Position numbers and translations under genes: made by a program. 35,244 nt of DNA, taken from Campylobacterales bacterium (GTDB lineage: Bacteria; Campylobacterota; Campylobacteria; Campylobacterales; QNZT01). The DNA lies in the NCBI GenBank assembly GCA_027068765.1, contig JAMOMC010000091.1, forward strand, positions 1-35,244, written 5' to 3'. This document shows positions 11,959-31,057 of this stretch, piece after piece (within the stretch, counting starts at the first letter, position 1; each line of letters begins with the position of its first letter). The notes beneath the pieces were generated by a model. That model was not told the origin of the DNA and searched no databases. It saw only the letters and a list, made by a program, of their open reading frames with translations.

Positions 11959-12168
11959 ATGAAAATTTCAAATAAAGAGATTGCAACATTGATTAAGAAA
12001 ACTCCATCAGCTATCTCATATTTGAAAAAAAATAATGAAAATGAGTATAAAATTTTAAAACTAGGTGTTTTATGTAGAAAGCTTGAATTAGATTCGCAAG
12101 ATTTAGAAGCTATGCATTTACTTAAAAAAATTGAATTTAAAAAGAGTGAGTTTAACAAAAAGAACTAA
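11959..12168 (+). CDS. small putative HTH protein (69 aa)
   Basis: ISNKEIATLIKKTPSAISYLKKNNENEYKILKLGVLCRKLELD; HTH-like N-terminal half; paralogous to the next ORF, which supports coding. Confidence 0.7.
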   Translation: MKISNKEIATLIKKTPSAISYLKKNNENEYKILKLGVLCRKLELDSQDLEAMHLLKKIEFKKSEFNKKN

Positions 12169-12234: not shown

Positions 12235-12414
12235 ATGAATGTTACAGATGAAGAGATGGCAAAGACTCTTGATAAAACTAAACTAGAGATACAGAAATTA
12301 AAAGATAGAGATATAACTTTATATAAACTTTTAAAAGTGGGTGTACTTTGTAGAAAATTGGATTTAGATGTTGAAGATTTACATAAGATATATGAAAAAA
12401 AAGTTTTTAGTTAA
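12235..12414 (+). CDS. small protein (59 aa), tandem paralogue of the 11959-12168 product; not in supplied ORF track
   Basis: Read directly: ATG with AAGGAGAG 5' of it, MNVTDEEMAKTLDKTKLEIQKLKDRDITLYKLLKVGVLCRKLDLDVEDLHKIYEKKVFS*. Shares YK(I/L)LK(L/V)GVLCRKL(E/D)LD with the preceding ORF. Confidence 0.75.
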   Translation: MNVTDEEMAKTLDKTKLEIQKLKDRDITLYKLLKVGVLCRKLDLDVEDLHKIYEKKVFS

Positions 12415-12424
12415 CTTTAGTCTT

Positions 12425-12476
12425 GTAACAATTTGTAACTTCCAAATTTTTTACTGTAACTTATAGTAACAGTTAC
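12425..12476 (+). promoter_or_regulatory. phased GTAAC repeats (putative operator) upstream of acnB
   Basis: GTAAC at 12425, 12435, 12456 and 12466, plus inverted GTTAC at 12472. Spacing inside pairs is exactly 10 bp. Confidence 0.5.
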
Positions 12477-12500: not shown

Positions 12501-12506
12501 TATAAT
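12501..12506 (+). promoter_or_regulatory. putative -10 element TATAAT of acnB
   Basis: TTTAAGTATAATCATAC, 31 nt upstream of the acnB ATG. Confidence 0.6.
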
Positions 12507-12531: not shown

Positions 12532-15099
12532 ATGAGTTTACTCAATGATTATAAATTACACACACAAGAGAGAGAAAAATTAAATGTACCACCATTGGTT
12601 TTAACCCCTGAGCAGGTAGCAGAGTTAGTGGAGCTTTTAAAAGCTTCACCAATTATAGATCAAGATTATGCAATGGATCTTTTTGAAAACAAAATTCCAG
12701 CAGGTGTTGATGATGCAGCTTATGTGAAAGCGGCTTTTTTAAATGATATTGTTCAAGGAAATGCATCTTGTGAAGCGATTGATAGTGTAAAAGCATGTGA
12801 GATTTTAGGAACTATGCTTGGTGGATTTAATGTTAAACCACTTGTTGAAGCTTTGAAAATTGATGGAGCTGTAGCTGATTGTGCAGCCCAGCAGCTTAAA
12901 AATACACTTTTAGTTTATGACTCATTTAATGATGTAAAAGAGCTTATGGATAGTGGAAATGCAAAAGCAAAAGAGATTATTGAATCTTGGGCGGATGCAC
13001 AGTGGTTTAAAAATAGAAAAGGTATTGAGAGTGAGATGACTTTAACTGTTTATAAAATCCCAGGTGAGACAAATACAGATGATTTATCTCCTGCTAGTGA
13101 AGCATTTACAAGAGCTGATGTTCCTCTTCATGCAAACTCATTTTTGATAAATCGTATGGATAATCCACTTCAAACTATGGAAGAGTTAAAGAAAAAAGGT
13201 AACCCTTTAGTTTATGTTGGTGATGTAGTTGGGACGGGAAGTTCTAGAAAATCAGGTATAAACTCTGTTCAGTGGCATATGGGTAGAGATATACCTTCTA
13301 TTCCTGGTAAAAGAACGGGTGGTGTTGTTATTGGTGATATTATCGCTCCTATATTTTTCAACACGGCTGAGGATAGTGGATGTCTGCCTATTGAAGCTCC
13401 TGTGGCTAACTTAGAGACTGGTGATGTTATAACATTGAAGACATTTGAAGGTGTTATAGAAAAAGATGGAAAAGTTGTAAGTGAGTTTAAGGTAAATCCA
13501 AACACACTTCCAGATGAGATGCAAGCAGGAGGTAGAATTCCTCTGATCATAGGAAAAGGATTAACAGCTCGTGCAAGAGAAGCTTTAGGACTTGGAGCAA
13601 GTGATGCATTTTTAATCCCAAATCAACCAGATGATGATGGCAAAGGGTTTACTCTTGCTCAAAAGATGGTAGGAAAAGCTTGTGGCATGGATGGTGTAAA
13701 ACCTGGTGTATATTGTGAGCCTGTTGCTACAACTGTAGGAAGTCAAGATACAACAGGCCCCATGACAAGAGATGAGATAAAAGAGTTGGCTGCTTTAAAC
13801 TTTGGGGCTGATATGGTTATGCAATCTTTTTGTCATACAGCAGCTTATCCAAAGCCAGCAGATATAAAACTCCAACACACACTTCCAGATTTTTGGACAA
13901 GTAGAAAAGGTTTTATTCTCCGCCCAGGTGATGGTGTAATTCACTCATGGCTAAATAGACTCTGTCTTCCTGATACTGTTGGAACAGGTGCAGATTCACA
14001 TACAAGATTCCCTATTGGTATCTCATTTCCAGCAGGAAGTGGGCTTGTTGCATTTGCAGGAGTTACTGGAATGATGCCTTTAACTATGCCTGAGTCTGTG
14101 TTAGTTAAATTTAGTGGAGAGTTACAACCTGGAATTACTCTTAGAGATTTGGTAAATGCTATTCCTCATCAAGCTATAAAAGATGGTTTATTGACGGTTG
14201 AGAAAAAGGGTAAGAAAAATATTTTTGCAGGTAGGATTTTAGAAGTTGAAGGTCTTGAAGATTTAAAATGTGAGCAAGCATTTGAACTCTCAGATGCAAG
14301 TGCTGAGAGAAGTGCAGCCGCTTGTACTGTAAAGTTAAATAAAGAGCCAGTTGCTGAGTATTTAGAATCTAATGTAGTATTAATCGAAGAGTTAATTGCA
14401 CAAGGTTATGAAGATGCCGCAACTTTACAAAGACGAGCTGATAAGATGAAAGATTGGTTAAAAACTCAGGAGCTTTTAGAAGCAGATAAAGATGCAGAGT
14501 ATGCAGCTGTTATAAATATAGATTTAAATGAGATAACTGAGCCAATTTTGGCTTGTCCAAATGATCCAGATGATGTAAAAACATTAACAGAGATTAAGGA
14601 AGCTGGATTAAGATTAGAGATTGATGAAGTATTTGTTGGGTCTTGTATGACAAATATCGGATTGTTTCGTGCTTGTGGAGAAGTTTTACGAGGAGAGGGT
14701 GCAGTTCCTACTAAACTTTGGATTTGTCCTCCTACTAAAATGGATGAGAAAACTCTTCAAGAAGAGGGTTATTATTCTGTATTTGGAGCAGCTGGAGCTA
14801 GAACAGAGATTCCTGGTTGCTCTCTTTGTATGGGTAATCAAGCTAGTGTGGCTAAAGATGCTTGGGTATTTTCAACTTCAACTAGAAACTTTGACAATAG
14901 ACTTGGAAAAGGGAGTCAAGTATATTTAGGCTCTGCTGAACTTGCTGCGGTTGTTGCTCTTAAGGGTCGTATTCCTACAAAAGAGGAGTATTTAGATATA
15001 GTGCCAAATAAAATCAAGCCTGAGATGAGCGATGAAGTTTATAAATATCTAAATTTTCATAAAGTAAGTAAAGAAGAACTTACTGCTATGGTTCAATAA
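12532..15099 (+). CDS. acnB: aconitate hydratase B (bifunctional 2-methylisocitrate dehydratase type)
   Basis: 855 aa; AcnB architecture: [108 protein letters not shown]. Confidence 0.98.
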
Positions 15100-16107: not shown

Positions 16108-16127
16108 AACACTTGAGATTTTATTAT

Positions 16128-16142
16128 GTTACAAAAAGTAAC
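16128..16142 (+). promoter_or_regulatory. GTTAC/GTAAC pair upstream of icd (10-bp phasing; also a 5-bp stem)
   Basis: GTTAC(16128)AAAAAGTAAC(16138)TTTTGATAC; 26-30 nt upstream of the icd -10. Confidence 0.4.
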
Positions 16143-16167
16143 TTTTGATACTTTTTTAGAAAAAATA

Positions 16168-16225: not shown

Positions 16226-18421
16226 ATGTCAACAATTATATGGACTAAAATAGATGAGGCTCCAGCCCTAGCAACTTATTCACTACTGCCAATCGTAAAT
16301 GCATTTACAAAGTCAGCTGGTGTTGATGTTGAGCTTAGAGATATTTCATTAGCAGGAAGAGTTTTATCTACTTTCCCTGAAAATTTAACAGATGCACAAA
16401 AAATTGATGATGAGTTATCATATTTGGGTACAGTTGTACAAAAAGCTGATGGAAATATTATTAAGCTTCCAAATATTTCAGCTTCTGTTCCACAACTTCA
16501 AGACTGTATAGCTGAGCTTCAAGGTCAAGGTTATGATATTCCTAATTTCCCTGAAGATCCTCAAAATGATGAAGAAAAAGCTATCAAAGAGAAGTATTCA
16601 ACTTGTCTTGGAAGTGCGGTTAATCCAGTTTTAAGAGAAGGTAACTCAGATAGAAGAGCTGCGGTTGCGGTTAAGAATTTTGCAAAGAAAAATCCACATA
16701 AACTTAGAGCATTTGAAACTCCTTCAAAAGCATATGTTGCACACATGAGTGGAGGAGATTTTTTCTCAAATGAAAAATCAGTTATAAAATCAGGTGCAGG
16801 AAGTGTTACAATTGAGTTAAATGGTAACTGTCTTAAAAAGCTTGATGATATTCAAGATAAAGAGGTGTTAGATGCAACTTTTATGTCTAAAACTGCACTA
16901 AGAAGTTTTTTACAAGATACTTTAGATGAAGCTAAGAAAAATGATGTTTTATGGTCACTTCACATGAAAGCTACTATGATGAAAGTTTCTGATCCAATCA
17001 TATTTGGTCATGCAGTTGAAGTATTTTTCAAGGATGTATTTGCAAAATATAGTGATGAGTTTAATGCTATTGGTTATAACTCAAACATGGGTCTTGGTGA
17101 TCTTTATAAAAAATTAGAAAAATCTTCTAAAAAAGATGAGATTATAGCTGCAATTGAGGCTACATATGCAACTCAGCCAAATATGGCTATGGTTGATTCA
17201 GATAAAGGTATCACAAACTTACATGCTTCAAATGATATTATCATAGATGCTTCAATGCCTGTTGTCATTAGAGATGGTGGTAAGATGTGGAATGCTGATG
17301 GTAAGCCACAAGAGTGTGTATCTGTAATCCCAGATGCTTCATATGCAGTTTTTCATAAAGCTATGGTAGATGATTGTGTTGCAAATGGTCAATATGATGT
17401 TACAACTATGGGTAATGTTGCAAATGTTGGTCTTATGGCTCAAAAAGCTGAAGAGTATGGTTCTCATCCTACAACTTTTGAAGTTTCAGAGGCTGGTACT
17501 ATGGAAGTAAAAGATAGTGATGGAAATGTTTTAATGAGCCATGATGTAGAAGAGGGTGATATTTGGAGACTTAGTAGAACAAAAGATATTCCTATTCAAG
17601 ATTGGGTAAGATTAGCTGTTGAGAGAGGAAGACTTACAGGTTCTCCTGTTGTATTTTGGCTAAATGAAAAAAGAGCTCATGATGCAAATATTATAGCAAA
17701 AGTTGAAGAATATATAAAAAGTCATGATACATCTGGATTAGAGATTTTAACTATGGATGTAGCAAGTGCTACAAAATACTCAAATGCTAGAATGAGAGAA
17801 GGAAAAGATACAATTGCTGCTACTGGTAATGTACTAAGAGACCATTTAACTGATATGTACCCAATTTTAGAGTTAGGAACAAGTGCAAAGATGCTTTCTA
17901 TCGTTCCATTAATTGCAGGTGGTGGATTGTTTGAAACCGGTGCTGGTGGTTCTGCTCCAAAGCATGTTGATCAATTTGTAGAAGAGGGGCATTTAAGATG
18001 GGATTCACTTGGTGAGTTTTTAGCACTTGCTGAATCTTTAAGATTTATTGCTCAAAAAAATAGTTCAAAAGATCTTGAAGTTGTAACAGCTGCACTAGAT
18101 GCTGCAAATCAAGCTTACTTAGATAATAACAAAGCACCTTCAAGAAAATGTGGTGAGCCCGACAATAGAGCGAGTCACTTTTTTGTAGCACAATATTGGG
18201 CAGATGCTTTAGCTTCTCAGAGTGAGGATAAAGCTTTAGCTGAAAAATTTGCACCAGTTGCAAAAGCTTTAAAAGATAATGAAGAAAAAATTATTGCAGA
18301 GCTTTTGGCAACTGAAGGAAAAGCTCAAGATATTGGTGGATATTTTCACCCAGATGATGCAAAAGCGGAAAAAGCAATGAGACCGTCTGCTACTTTAAAT
18401 TCTATAATTAATTCAATTTAA
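16226..18421 (+). CDS. icd: isocitrate dehydrogenase, NADP-dependent, monomeric type
   Basis: 731 aa; IIWTKIDEAPALATYSLLPIVNAFTKSAGVDVELRDISLAGRVLS, IKLPNISASVPQLQDCIAELQ, GNSDRRAA, ETGAGGSAPKHVDQFVEEGHLRWDSLGEFLAL. Confidence 0.98.
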   Translation: MSTIIWTKIDEAPALATYSLLPIVNAFTKSAGVDVELRDISLAGRVLSTFPENLTDAQKIDDELSYLGTVVQKADGNIIKLPNISASVPQLQDCIAELQGQGYDIPNFPEDPQNDEEKAIKEKYSTCLGSAVNPVLREGNSDRRAAVAVKNFAKKNPHKLRAFETPSKAYVAHMSGGDFFSNEKSVIKSGAGSVTIELNGNCLKKLDDIQDKEVLDATFMSKTALRSFLQDTLDEAKKNDVLWSLHMKATMMKVSDPIIFGHAVEVFFKDVFAKYSDEFNAIGYNSNMGLGDLYKKLEKSSKKDEIIAAIEATYATQPNMAMVDSDKGITNLHASNDIIIDASMPVVIRDGGKMWNADGKPQECVSVIPDASYAVFHKAMVDDCVANGQYDVTTMGNVANVGLMAQKAEEYGSHPTTFEVSEAGTMEVKDSDGNVLMSHDVEEGDIWRLSRTKDIPIQDWVRLAVERGRLTGSPVVFWLNEKRAHDANIIAKVEEYIKSHDTSGLEILTMDVASATKYSNARMREGKDTIAATGNVLRDHLTDMYPILELGTSAKMLSIVPLIAGGGLFETGAGGSAPKHVDQFVEEGHLRWDSLGEFLALAESLRFIAQKNSSKDLEVVTAALDAANQAYLDNNKAPSRKCGEPDNRASHFFVAQYWADALASQSEDKALAEKFAPVAKALKDNEEKIIAELLATEGKAQDIGGYFHPDDAKAEKAMRPSATLNSIINSI

Positions 18422-27827: not shown

Positions 27828-30344
27828 ATGAAAATAGTTCTCTTAGTTTTACTTTTTATATCTTCGATTTTTGCAAATGAGGTAAAATTAGAGAAAGTAA
27901 AACTTCAACTACAATGGAAACACCAATTTGAATTTGCTGGATTTTATGCAGCAAAAGAGAGAGGTTTTTACCAAGAAGTTGGACTTGATGTTGAGTTTAT
28001 AGAGTATACAAATGATATAAATATCATCGAAGATGTTTTAAATAATAAAGTTCAATATGCCACAACTTATGCAAACCTTGTATCTAGTTATCTTGAGGGT
28101 AAACCTGTAGTTTTTATGGCAAACTTTTTTAAGCAGTCAGCTTTAGCTTTAGTATCTCAAAAAGATATTAAGCTACCTAGTGATTTAATTGGAAAAAAGA
28201 TTATGAGTGTTGAAGAAGAGCTTATGATTATGATGATGTTTAAAAAATTTGGGTTAGATGCAGACCAATATACATTGGTAAAACCAACATTCAATATAGA
28301 TGATTTCATAGATAAAAAAGTAGATGCTATGACTGTATTTACAACAAATGAGACTTATTTTTTAGATAAAAGAGGTATAAAATATAATGTTTTTAATCCT
28401 ACAGTTTATGGTGCAGAGTTTTATGATGTTAACCTTTTTACATCCCAAGATGAGTTAAATAAAAATCCACATAGAGTAAAAGCTTTTAAAGATGCTAGCA
28501 TAAGAGGTTGGAAATATGCATTGAAGCACCAAAATAGAGTAATTGAGCTAATTTTAAAAAAATATAATACACAAAATAAATCAAAAGATGCACTTATTTA
28601 TGAAGCTAAACAGATAGAGAATCTTATATTACCAAAACTGTATCCAATAGGCAGTATTGATATTGAGCGAGTTAAAATGATAGCGGAAAACTTAATAGAA
28701 TTAGAGATAATAGATAAAAATTCAAAATTAAACTTTGATAATTTCATTTATGATAATTTAGTAAAAAATATCAATCTTACATCGAAAGAGCGTAGTTATT
28801 TGAATAAAAGAGATAGTATTACTATGTGTATTGATCCAAATTGGTTTCCTTTTGAAAAGATAGATAAAAATGGTGAACATAAAGGGATGAGTTATGAGTA
28901 TACAAAGATTTTCTCTAAAACAATTGATATACCCATAAAATTAGTTAAGACTAAAGATTGGACAGAGTCTTTGGAGTTTTTAAAAGAGAAGAAATGTGAT
29001 ATTTTACCATTTGCTATGCGAACACCTAAAAGAGAAGAGTATATGGATTTTACAAAACCATATTTTTACTCTAACTTAGTTGTTATTGGGCAAGGGAGTA
29101 AGCCATTTGTTGGAGATTTTAAAGAGTTATCAAATAAAAAAATTGGTATAACAAAAGGGTATGCTTATTTTGAATTATTGAAAAATAAGTATAAAAATAT
29201 AGATATAAAAGAGATAGATACTCTAGAAAATGGTTTGAAGCTTATTGAGAATTCTAAATTAGATGGCTATATAGAGGCACTTGAAGTAGTTGGGAGTAAA
29301 ATTCAAAATGAATATTTAGGTGAGATAAAAGTAATCTCTAAACTTGATGAACATTTAGAGTTATCAATTGCAACTAGCAAAGATGAACCACTTTTAAATA
29401 GCATTTTTCAAAAAGCAATAGATAAATTGACACCAAAAGAGCATGCTAGTATAAAAAATAGATATCTATTTGTAACTGTTGAAAATAAGGTAGATTACTC
29501 TTTTATCTACAAGGTACTGTCTATATTTTTTGTAATAATACTATTTGTACTTTATAGACAATATCTTTTACATAAATTAAATAGAGATTTAGAGATAAAA
29601 ATGAGAGAAGAACTTGAAAAATCAAAAGATAAAGATAACATGATTAATCAGCAGAGTAAACTTGTATCAACAGGAGAGATGATTACAAATATTTCTCATC
29701 AGTGGAGACAGCCACTTGCTAGTCTAAATGGTCTTTTAGTTAATTTAGACTATGATTATGAAAATAGTAGACTTAATAAAAATAGCTTTAATAACTATTT
29801 AAATGAAGCTGAAAAATTAACAGCATATATGTCAAAAACGATAGAAGACTTTAGTGATTTTTTTAATCCTAAAAAGAAAAAAGAGATTTTTAGTATTAAA
29901 GAACTATTGTTAAGTACTCGGAGTTTACTCTCTGTATCTTTAAAAAATGAGAGAATATTGTTAGAGATAAAAGGTAGTAGAGATATAAAAATTAACTCTT
30001 TTAAATCTGAACTTATGCAGATAATCTTGACAATAATTAGCAATGCAAAAGATGCTTTTATCTTGAATGATACAAAAAATAGAGTTATAATTATCTTTTT
30101 ATATAAGTGTGATAAAGAGATAGTTATAGATATTCAAGATAATGCAGGTGGAATTGATGAGAATATAATCGGCAATATCTTTGAACCTTATTTTACAACA
30201 AAAAATAATTTACAAGGAACAGGACTAGGTCTTTACATCGCAAATTCTATTGTTACAGGGAGTTTAGGTGGAGAGTTGTTAGTGCAAAATAAGAAAAAAG
30301 GTGCAAAGTTTACTATAAAATTTAAAAAACTTTCTTTTTCCTAA
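27828..30344 (+). CDS. sensor histidine kinase with N-terminal NMT1/THI5-like and SBP_bac_3-like domains
   Basis: Signal peptide; LQLQWKHQFEFAGFYAAKERGFYQEVGLDVEFIEY (NMT1); MCIDPNWFPFEKIDKNGEHKGMSYEY (SBP_bac_3); TM; H-box NISHQWRQPLASLNGLL; N-box NAKDAF; GTGLGLYIANSIV. Confidence 0.92.
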   Translation: MKIVLLVLLFISSIFANEVKLEKVKLQLQWKHQFEFAGFYAAKERGFYQEVGLDVEFIEYTNDINIIEDVLNNKVQYATTYANLVSSYLEGKPVVFMANFFKQSALALVSQKDIKLPSDLIGKKIMSVEEELMIMMMFKKFGLDADQYTLVKPTFNIDDFIDKKVDAMTVFTTNETYFLDKRGIKYNVFNPTVYGAEFYDVNLFTSQDELNKNPHRVKAFKDASIRGWKYALKHQNRVIELILKKYNTQNKSKDALIYEAKQIENLILPKLYPIGSIDIERVKMIAENLIELEIIDKNSKLNFDNFIYDNLVKNINLTSKERSYLNKRDSITMCIDPNWFPFEKIDKNGEHKGMSYEYTKIFSKTIDIPIKLVKTKDWTESLEFLKEKKCDILPFAMRTPKREEYMDFTKPYFYSNLVVIGQGSKPFVGDFKELSNKKIGITKGYAYFELLKNKYKNIDIKEIDTLENGLKLIENSKLDGYIEALEVVGSKIQNEYLGEIKVISKLDEHLELSIATSKDEPLLNSIFQKAIDKLTPKEHASIKNRYLFVTVENKVDYSFIYKVLSIFFVIILFVLYRQYLLHKLNRDLEIKMREELEKSKDKDNMINQQSKLVSTGEMITNISHQWRQPLASLNGLLVNLDYDYENSRLNKNSFNNYLNEAEKLTAYMSKTIEDFSDFFNPKKKKEIFSIKELLLSTRSLLSVSLKNERILLEIKGSRDIKINSFKSELMQIILTIISNAKDAFILNDTKNRVIIIFLYKCDKEIVIDIQDNAGGIDENIIGNIFEPYFTTKNNLQGTGLGLYIANSIVTGSLGGELLVQNKKKGAKFTIKFKKLSFS

Positions 30345-30367
30345 CTATTGGAGGGTACAATGAATAT

Positions 30368-31057
30368 ATGAACCTTTTAAAGCAGATGGTATTGCTATAT
30401 GCTGAAGATGAATTAGATATTCAAAAGCACTATAGTAGCTATTTCCAAAATTATTTTAGATATGTTTATACGGCTGTTGATGGAGAGCAAGCTTTGGCTA
30501 TTTATAAAGAGAATAGACCTGATGTAGTCATCTTAGATATCAACATGCCTTATTTAAATGGCTTAGAGGTAGCTAGAAAAATAAGAGAAGATAGTAGTGA
30601 GATTAGTATTATCTTATTAACCGCAAGATCAGATAAAGAAACTTTAATAGAAGCGGTTGAAATTGGTTTAGTGACATATCTTGAAAAACCTATCCAAAGA
30701 GATATCTTAAAACATGCATTGGCAAAATTAAATCAAAAATTGAAATCAAATAACAAAATAAATTTATGGTTTTATAAAAATAGTTTTTATACTTGGAATA
30801 AGAGTAAACAACAACTTTTTTATAAACAACAGCAAATTTTACTTACAAAGCAAGAGATTAGCCTATTAGGAATTTTAATATCAAGTAATGGTGCAAAAGT
30901 TAGTTACCAAGATATTTATGAAGAGATTTGGTTTAATGAAGATAGAGAGTATAAAGAGTCTACAATTAAAACATTGATAAGTGCTTTACGGGTTAAGTTA
31001 CCTCCAAAAGCTATAGAAAATGTTTATGGTATGGGTTATTATTTAAATATTTATTAA
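30368..31057 (+). CDS. OmpR/PhoB-family response regulator
   Basis: Receiver domain (YAEDELD, VVILDINMPYLNGLEVARKIR, TARSDKETLIEAVEIG, YLEKPI) and winged-helix C-terminus (ILLTKQEISLLGILISS, YQDIYEEIW, STIKTLISALRVKL, GMGYYL). Confidence 0.92.
   Translation: MNLLKQMVLLYAEDELDIQKHYSSYFQNYFRYVYTAVDGEQALAIYKENRPDVVILDINMPYLNGLEVARKIREDSSEISIILLTARSDKETLIEAVEIGLVTYLEKPIQRDILKHALAKLNQKLKSNNKINLWFYKNSFYTWNKSKQQLFYKQQQILLTKQEISLLGILISSNGAKVSYQDIYEEIWFNEDREYKESTIKTLISALRVKLPPKAIENVYGMGYYLNIY

Follow-up and report, generated by a model that had tools for sequence, protein, structure and literature searches.

Do the GTAAC words that precede acnB in this Campylobacterales genome form an operator and, if so, which regulator would read it? 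In the window (the whole stretch of DNA analysed, 35,244 nucleotides), GTAAC lies at 12425, 12435, 12456, and 12466 and TATAAT at 12501-12506, exactly where an earlier note had placed them. An inverted GTTAC at 12472 is also present, as that note had said, but relatives do not share it, and it is probably a chance occurrence. In favour of the repeats being likewise chance or compositional features without function, GTAAC as a single word is not enriched in the window (51 observed versus 42.5 expected). The paired arrangement is a different matter: GTAAC-N5-GTAAC occurs as 2 pairs, whereas 300 dinucleotide shuffles of the window gave 0.013 on average and 0/300 reached 2, and 0/5000 shuffles of the 116-bp intergenic region contained two such pairs. 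The coordinates of the relevant features are given in Table 1.

Table 1. Predicted operators, promoter element, and target genes in the window.
Feature	Position	Strand	Remarks
Distal 17-bp dyad operator (predicted) TGTAACAATTTGTAACT	12424..12440	+	Centre -100 from acnB start; 1 mismatch to TGTWAC-N5-GTWACA; kept in 17/17 family relatives
Proximal 17-bp dyad operator (predicted) TGTAACTTATAGTAACA	12455..12471	+	Centre -69 from acnB start, 31 bp from distal centre; 0 mismatches
acnB promoter -10 box TATAAT	12501..12506	+	GTATAAT-like element, distance conserved in relatives
acnB, aconitate hydratase B, target gene	12532..15099	+	NCBIfam TIGR00117, 1374 bits
Single 17-bp dyad operator (predicted) TGTTACAAAAAGTAACT, upstream of icd	16127..16143	+	1 mismatch
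icd, monomeric NADP-dependent isocitrate dehydrogenase, second target in the window	16226..18421	+	NCBIfam TIGR00178, 1108 bits

Conservation upstream of orthologous acnB genes, which the earlier note had named as its own test, was found in 17/17 relatives of the window's family, each with two such elements. All 17 of these promoters match TGTWAC-N5-GTWACA with at most 1 mismatch, compared with 0.4% of shuffles. Among 68 acnB promoters from outside the family, 53% match at the same threshold, rising to 79% under a looser half-site pattern (shuffles, 0.5-0.6%), although acnB promoter sequences share ancestry and these counts are therefore not independent. Most genomes labelled Sulfurimonas, Sulfurovum, or Arcobacter carry an altered form of the pattern upstream of acnB, with the related elements TGTTTACTTTTGTAACA, TGTAACTATCCGATACA, and TGTAACTTTTATTTACA; these labels are a guide only, since many of the loci come from metagenome assemblies. 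Because shuffling fails to generate the double pair and the pattern is conserved upstream of acnB, it is best described as a real operator, and the conservation refutes an origin by chance, a reading whose probability, given also the fixed geometry and the recurrence over many genera, is negligible.

Some neighbouring features vary among the relatives. The acnB promoters labelled Arcobacter (L070-L092) have one more element in common: about 60-100 bp before the gene, with the dyad on one side and the -10 box on the other, they carry TTGTACA...TTTACAAAAATTGTACA. In the window, two short paralogous reading frames (11959-12168 and 12235-12414; 69 and 59 codons), neither with a Pfam match, lie between an ftsK-like gene and acnB, and in most relatives the end of the ftsK-like gene directly adjoins the upstream side of acnB.

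The earlier note had read the repeats as tandem OmpR/PhoB-type boxes and had pointed to the OmpR-family regulator at 30368-31057 as a possible binder. Within the window's family, the 10-bp spacing of GTAAC-N5-GTAAC suits such a regulator, and the genome has 18 Trans_reg_C matches. However, the family by itself cannot separate a direct repeat from a dyad, since GTWAC is almost palindromic. Every TGTAAC in the non-family acnB promoters was therefore taken as an anchor (n = 54) and the positions that follow were compared. GTAAC stands at the direct-repeat position in 0/54, whereas ACA stands at the mirror position in 35/54, and the forms GTTAC-N5-GTAAC and GTTAC-N5-GTTACA are common. On this evidence, the element is a dyad of about 17 bp, TGT-N11-ACA with inner preferences, or TGTWAC-N5-GTWACA, present twice. 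What stands of the earlier proposal is thus a helically phased operator that ends just upstream of the promoter and is aimed at rTCA genes; its direct-repeat geometry is ruled out by the mirror-image conservation test. The regulator at 30368-31057 is itself an unlikely binder because a clear orthologue is found in only one relative (G020, 79% identity; best full-length matches elsewhere, about 30-43%) and every acnB promoter in the family retains the operator. Taken together, binding of tandem 10-bp repeats by this or another OmpR/PhoB-family response regulator is unlikely. The regulator gene follows a histidine kinase gene with solute-binding-protein-like segments, and the two (27828-31057) adjoin the rTCA block. 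No motif was found in the literature searched for RacR, the OmpR-type regulator of fumarate genes in C. jejuni, that would allow comparison.

The spacing of the dyads is also constrained. In acnB promoters, the second strong site lies 31-33 or 41-43 bp from the distal anchor and almost nowhere else, so that the dyad centres are separated by three or four helical turns. Counted from the proximal dyad centre, the -10 box starts 36-38 bp downstream in 26/29 acnB promoters; in the remaining 3/29, it starts after 27 bp. In the window, this distance is 37 bp, and no clear -35 box is seen there. Similarly, the two dyads upstream of aclB are exactly 42 bp apart in 16/17 loci and 41 bp apart in 1/17, and all 17 have a -10-like box at a distance of 68-71 bp from the centre of the proximal dyad; in nearly all 17, the proximal aclB site reads TGTTWC-N8-ACA, which contains the HP1021 box. 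Since the proximal acnB sites fall near -49 in promoters that lack a clear -35 box, we infer that the protein bound there would act as an activator.

Which protein might bind is suggested by the half-site. The HP1021 box is TGTTWCW and the best Cj1509 box is TGTTACA (PMC6052347). In the window, TGTAACA (12424-12430) and AGTAACA (12465-12471) are the reverse complements of TGTTACA and TGTTACT, respectively, and both fit this box (PMC6052347). HP1021, Cj1608, and Abu0127 are now named CemR (PMC11334517). When cemR is deleted, TCA enzymes fall in C. jejuni, where gltA is among the controlled genes, Nuo, GltA, and Icd fall in A. butzleri, and in H. pylori the control of PFOR and ccoN-Q by oxygen is lost; binding of A. 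butzleri CemR to the nuoA promoter was shown by ChIP-qPCR and EMSA (PMC11334517). Additionally, HP1021 and its homologues are reported to be under Cys-based redox control (PMC8266642, PMC12632262). A full-length CemR orthologue of 296 aa with Cys27 is present in the window's genome (G000:C193:15648-16535). The gene lies downstream of ispDF in 30/30 cemR loci examined, as it does in H. pylori (PMC10593804). The protein ends in a Fis-type HTH, which scores narrowly over the Pfam cut-off and is near-invariant; much of it does not vary at all among 23 aligned orthologues. The structure predicted for the protein (mean pLDDT 88) is closest in fold to NtrC-family regulators. Strong CemR matches are present in 145/150 genomes of the class, a distribution so wide that presence or absence cannot prove a link to the operator. 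Of the five genomes lacking a strong match, two have no AcnB match either; for the other three, the dyad is absent from their relatives too. In the host-associated families f2 and f3, the acnB promoters have no dyad and CemR is nevertheless present.

Dyads of this kind also precede other genes of energy metabolism. Pattern searches of the whole genome found TGTWAC-N5-GTWACA, with at most 1 mismatch, 42 times, compared with 10 for the reversed control pattern. Many of the one-mismatch dyads lie inside genes and are probably non-functional; therefore, claims are limited to sites that recur or are well placed. For instance, dyads at -144 and -102 precede aclB (ATP-citrate lyase; L320), one at C92:9234 precedes porGDAB from within the upstream gene, and one at C92:11836 lies about 310 bp before ccoN of ccoNOQP. 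We take these to be acl, por, and cco genes from recognition of their protein sequences and from gene order rather than from a family search. At icd, dyads with at most 1 mismatch occupy the equivalent position in several syntenic relatives (e.g., L011, L013, L014, L017, and L020). Some relatives have a dyad before nuoA, and TGTTTC-N5-GTANCA is found in 7/10 Arcobacteraceae nuoA promoters, with one more a single base off. In the Campylobacter- and Helicobacter-like families, no dyad was found within 2 mismatches in gltA promoters. Three loci of the Campylobacteraceae-like family f3 (L301, L304, and L305) share a weaker block, roughly GTTACTTTTTTACTCA, upstream of gltA; gltA is a proven CemR target in C. 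jejuni, and a tie between this block and the dyad is suggestive only. Perfect intergenic dyads also occur in the window's genome at G000:C9:11256, C51:4574, and C59:12397, followed by genes for a DEAD-box helicase and an outer-membrane-like protein, for an MCP-like and an unknown protein, and for a thioredoxin-like protein, respectively; the relation of these genes to energy metabolism is uncertain.

Other regulators that bind dyads have to be weighed against CemR. A LysR-type regulator could occupy paired T-N11-A dyads as recognition and activation sites: T-N11-A is part of TGT-N11-ACA, a distance of three turns between two sites fits a LysR tetramer, and one LysR gene (L236:4722-5624, the only one found in the window's genome) adjoins cemR. 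This neighbour is missing beside cemR at the other 29 loci examined, no dyad was found near the LysR gene itself, and a 42-bp spacing between sites is long for LysR-type regulators, so that the probability left to such a protein is very small. A regulator of another kind, such as a HexR/RpiR-like protein or a second Fis-type response regulator, would also fit the symmetry, as the 17-bp TGTAA...TTACA geometry of HexR-type operators is similar and CemR is a proposed binder. It seems unlikely, however, given that the half-site and the target set both coincide with CemR. A CRP/FNR-type dyad was set aside because the odd TGT-N11-ACA spacing does not fit such proteins.

Of the regulators considered, CemR gives the best account of the sites. 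It is likely that paired CemR activator sites set the expression of rTCA and respiratory genes according to the oxygen or redox state. The 17-bp dyad stands in two copies immediately ahead of the acnB promoter, both on the same face of the helix; each copy would bind one CemR dimer, and the two dimers may cooperate across three or four helical turns. CemR bound upstream of a promoter without a clear -35 box would then activate transcription, a direction suggested by the position of the sites and by CemR mutants in other species. In this way, CemR could match rTCA and respiratory enzyme levels to oxygen or redox state and act as a redox-linked switch on the carbon-fixation cycle. There is perhaps an even chance that the role is broader and that, across the class, CemR serves rTCA-using Campylobacterota as the master switch of autotrophic carbon fixation. 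Phased pairs of CemR dyads on acnB and aclBA, together with sites at icd, por, and cco, would couple rTCA enzyme levels, and perhaps also the direction of the cycle, to oxygen or redox state, and host-associated relatives would have kept CemR but redirected it to different genes of the TCA cycle and of respiration.

The CemR regulator family is known; what is probably new is the form of the operator and the set of rTCA genes that it precedes. No description of CemR in an rTCA autotroph was found in the literature searched. The C. jejuni box has been described as too relaxed for genome scans (PMC6052347). If CemR binds here, then its operator can be predicted as a pair of 17-bp dyads, and CO2 fixation in the autotrophic Campylobacterota of vents and sulfidic waters gains a concrete, named regulator. 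The operator and its proposed regulator make the regulation of carbon fixation in rTCA Campylobacterota testable.

In comparison to known systems, the acnB element resembles OmpR/PhoB tandem boxes in that GTAAC recurs at 10 bp in the window's family, but its symmetry is inverted rather than direct across the class. A second likeness is to NtrC-type operators, which are 6-5-6 dyads with sites about three turns apart. The 17-bp dyad geometry is shared, and CemR has a Fis-type HTH and an NtrC-like fold. In contrast, the acnB dyads are close to a TATAAT-type promoter, with a -10 box at a fixed distance and no GG-N10-GC element of a sigma-54 promoter seen by eye before acnB, and CemR is much shorter than the NtrC-family structures that it matches. 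A third likeness is to the boxes of CemR/HP1021/Cj1608 (Cj1509)/Abu0127, with which the dyads share the TGTTWCW half-site, the target pathways (TCA, por, cco, nuo, and icd), and an orthologous regulator with Cys27 and ispDF synteny. The boxes known so far from publications, mapped in H. pylori and C. jejuni at oriC and at a few promoters, are relaxed 7-mers that stand singly, whereas those described here are paired 17-bp dyads, held at a fixed spacing of three or four turns, at the rTCA genes of free-living relatives.
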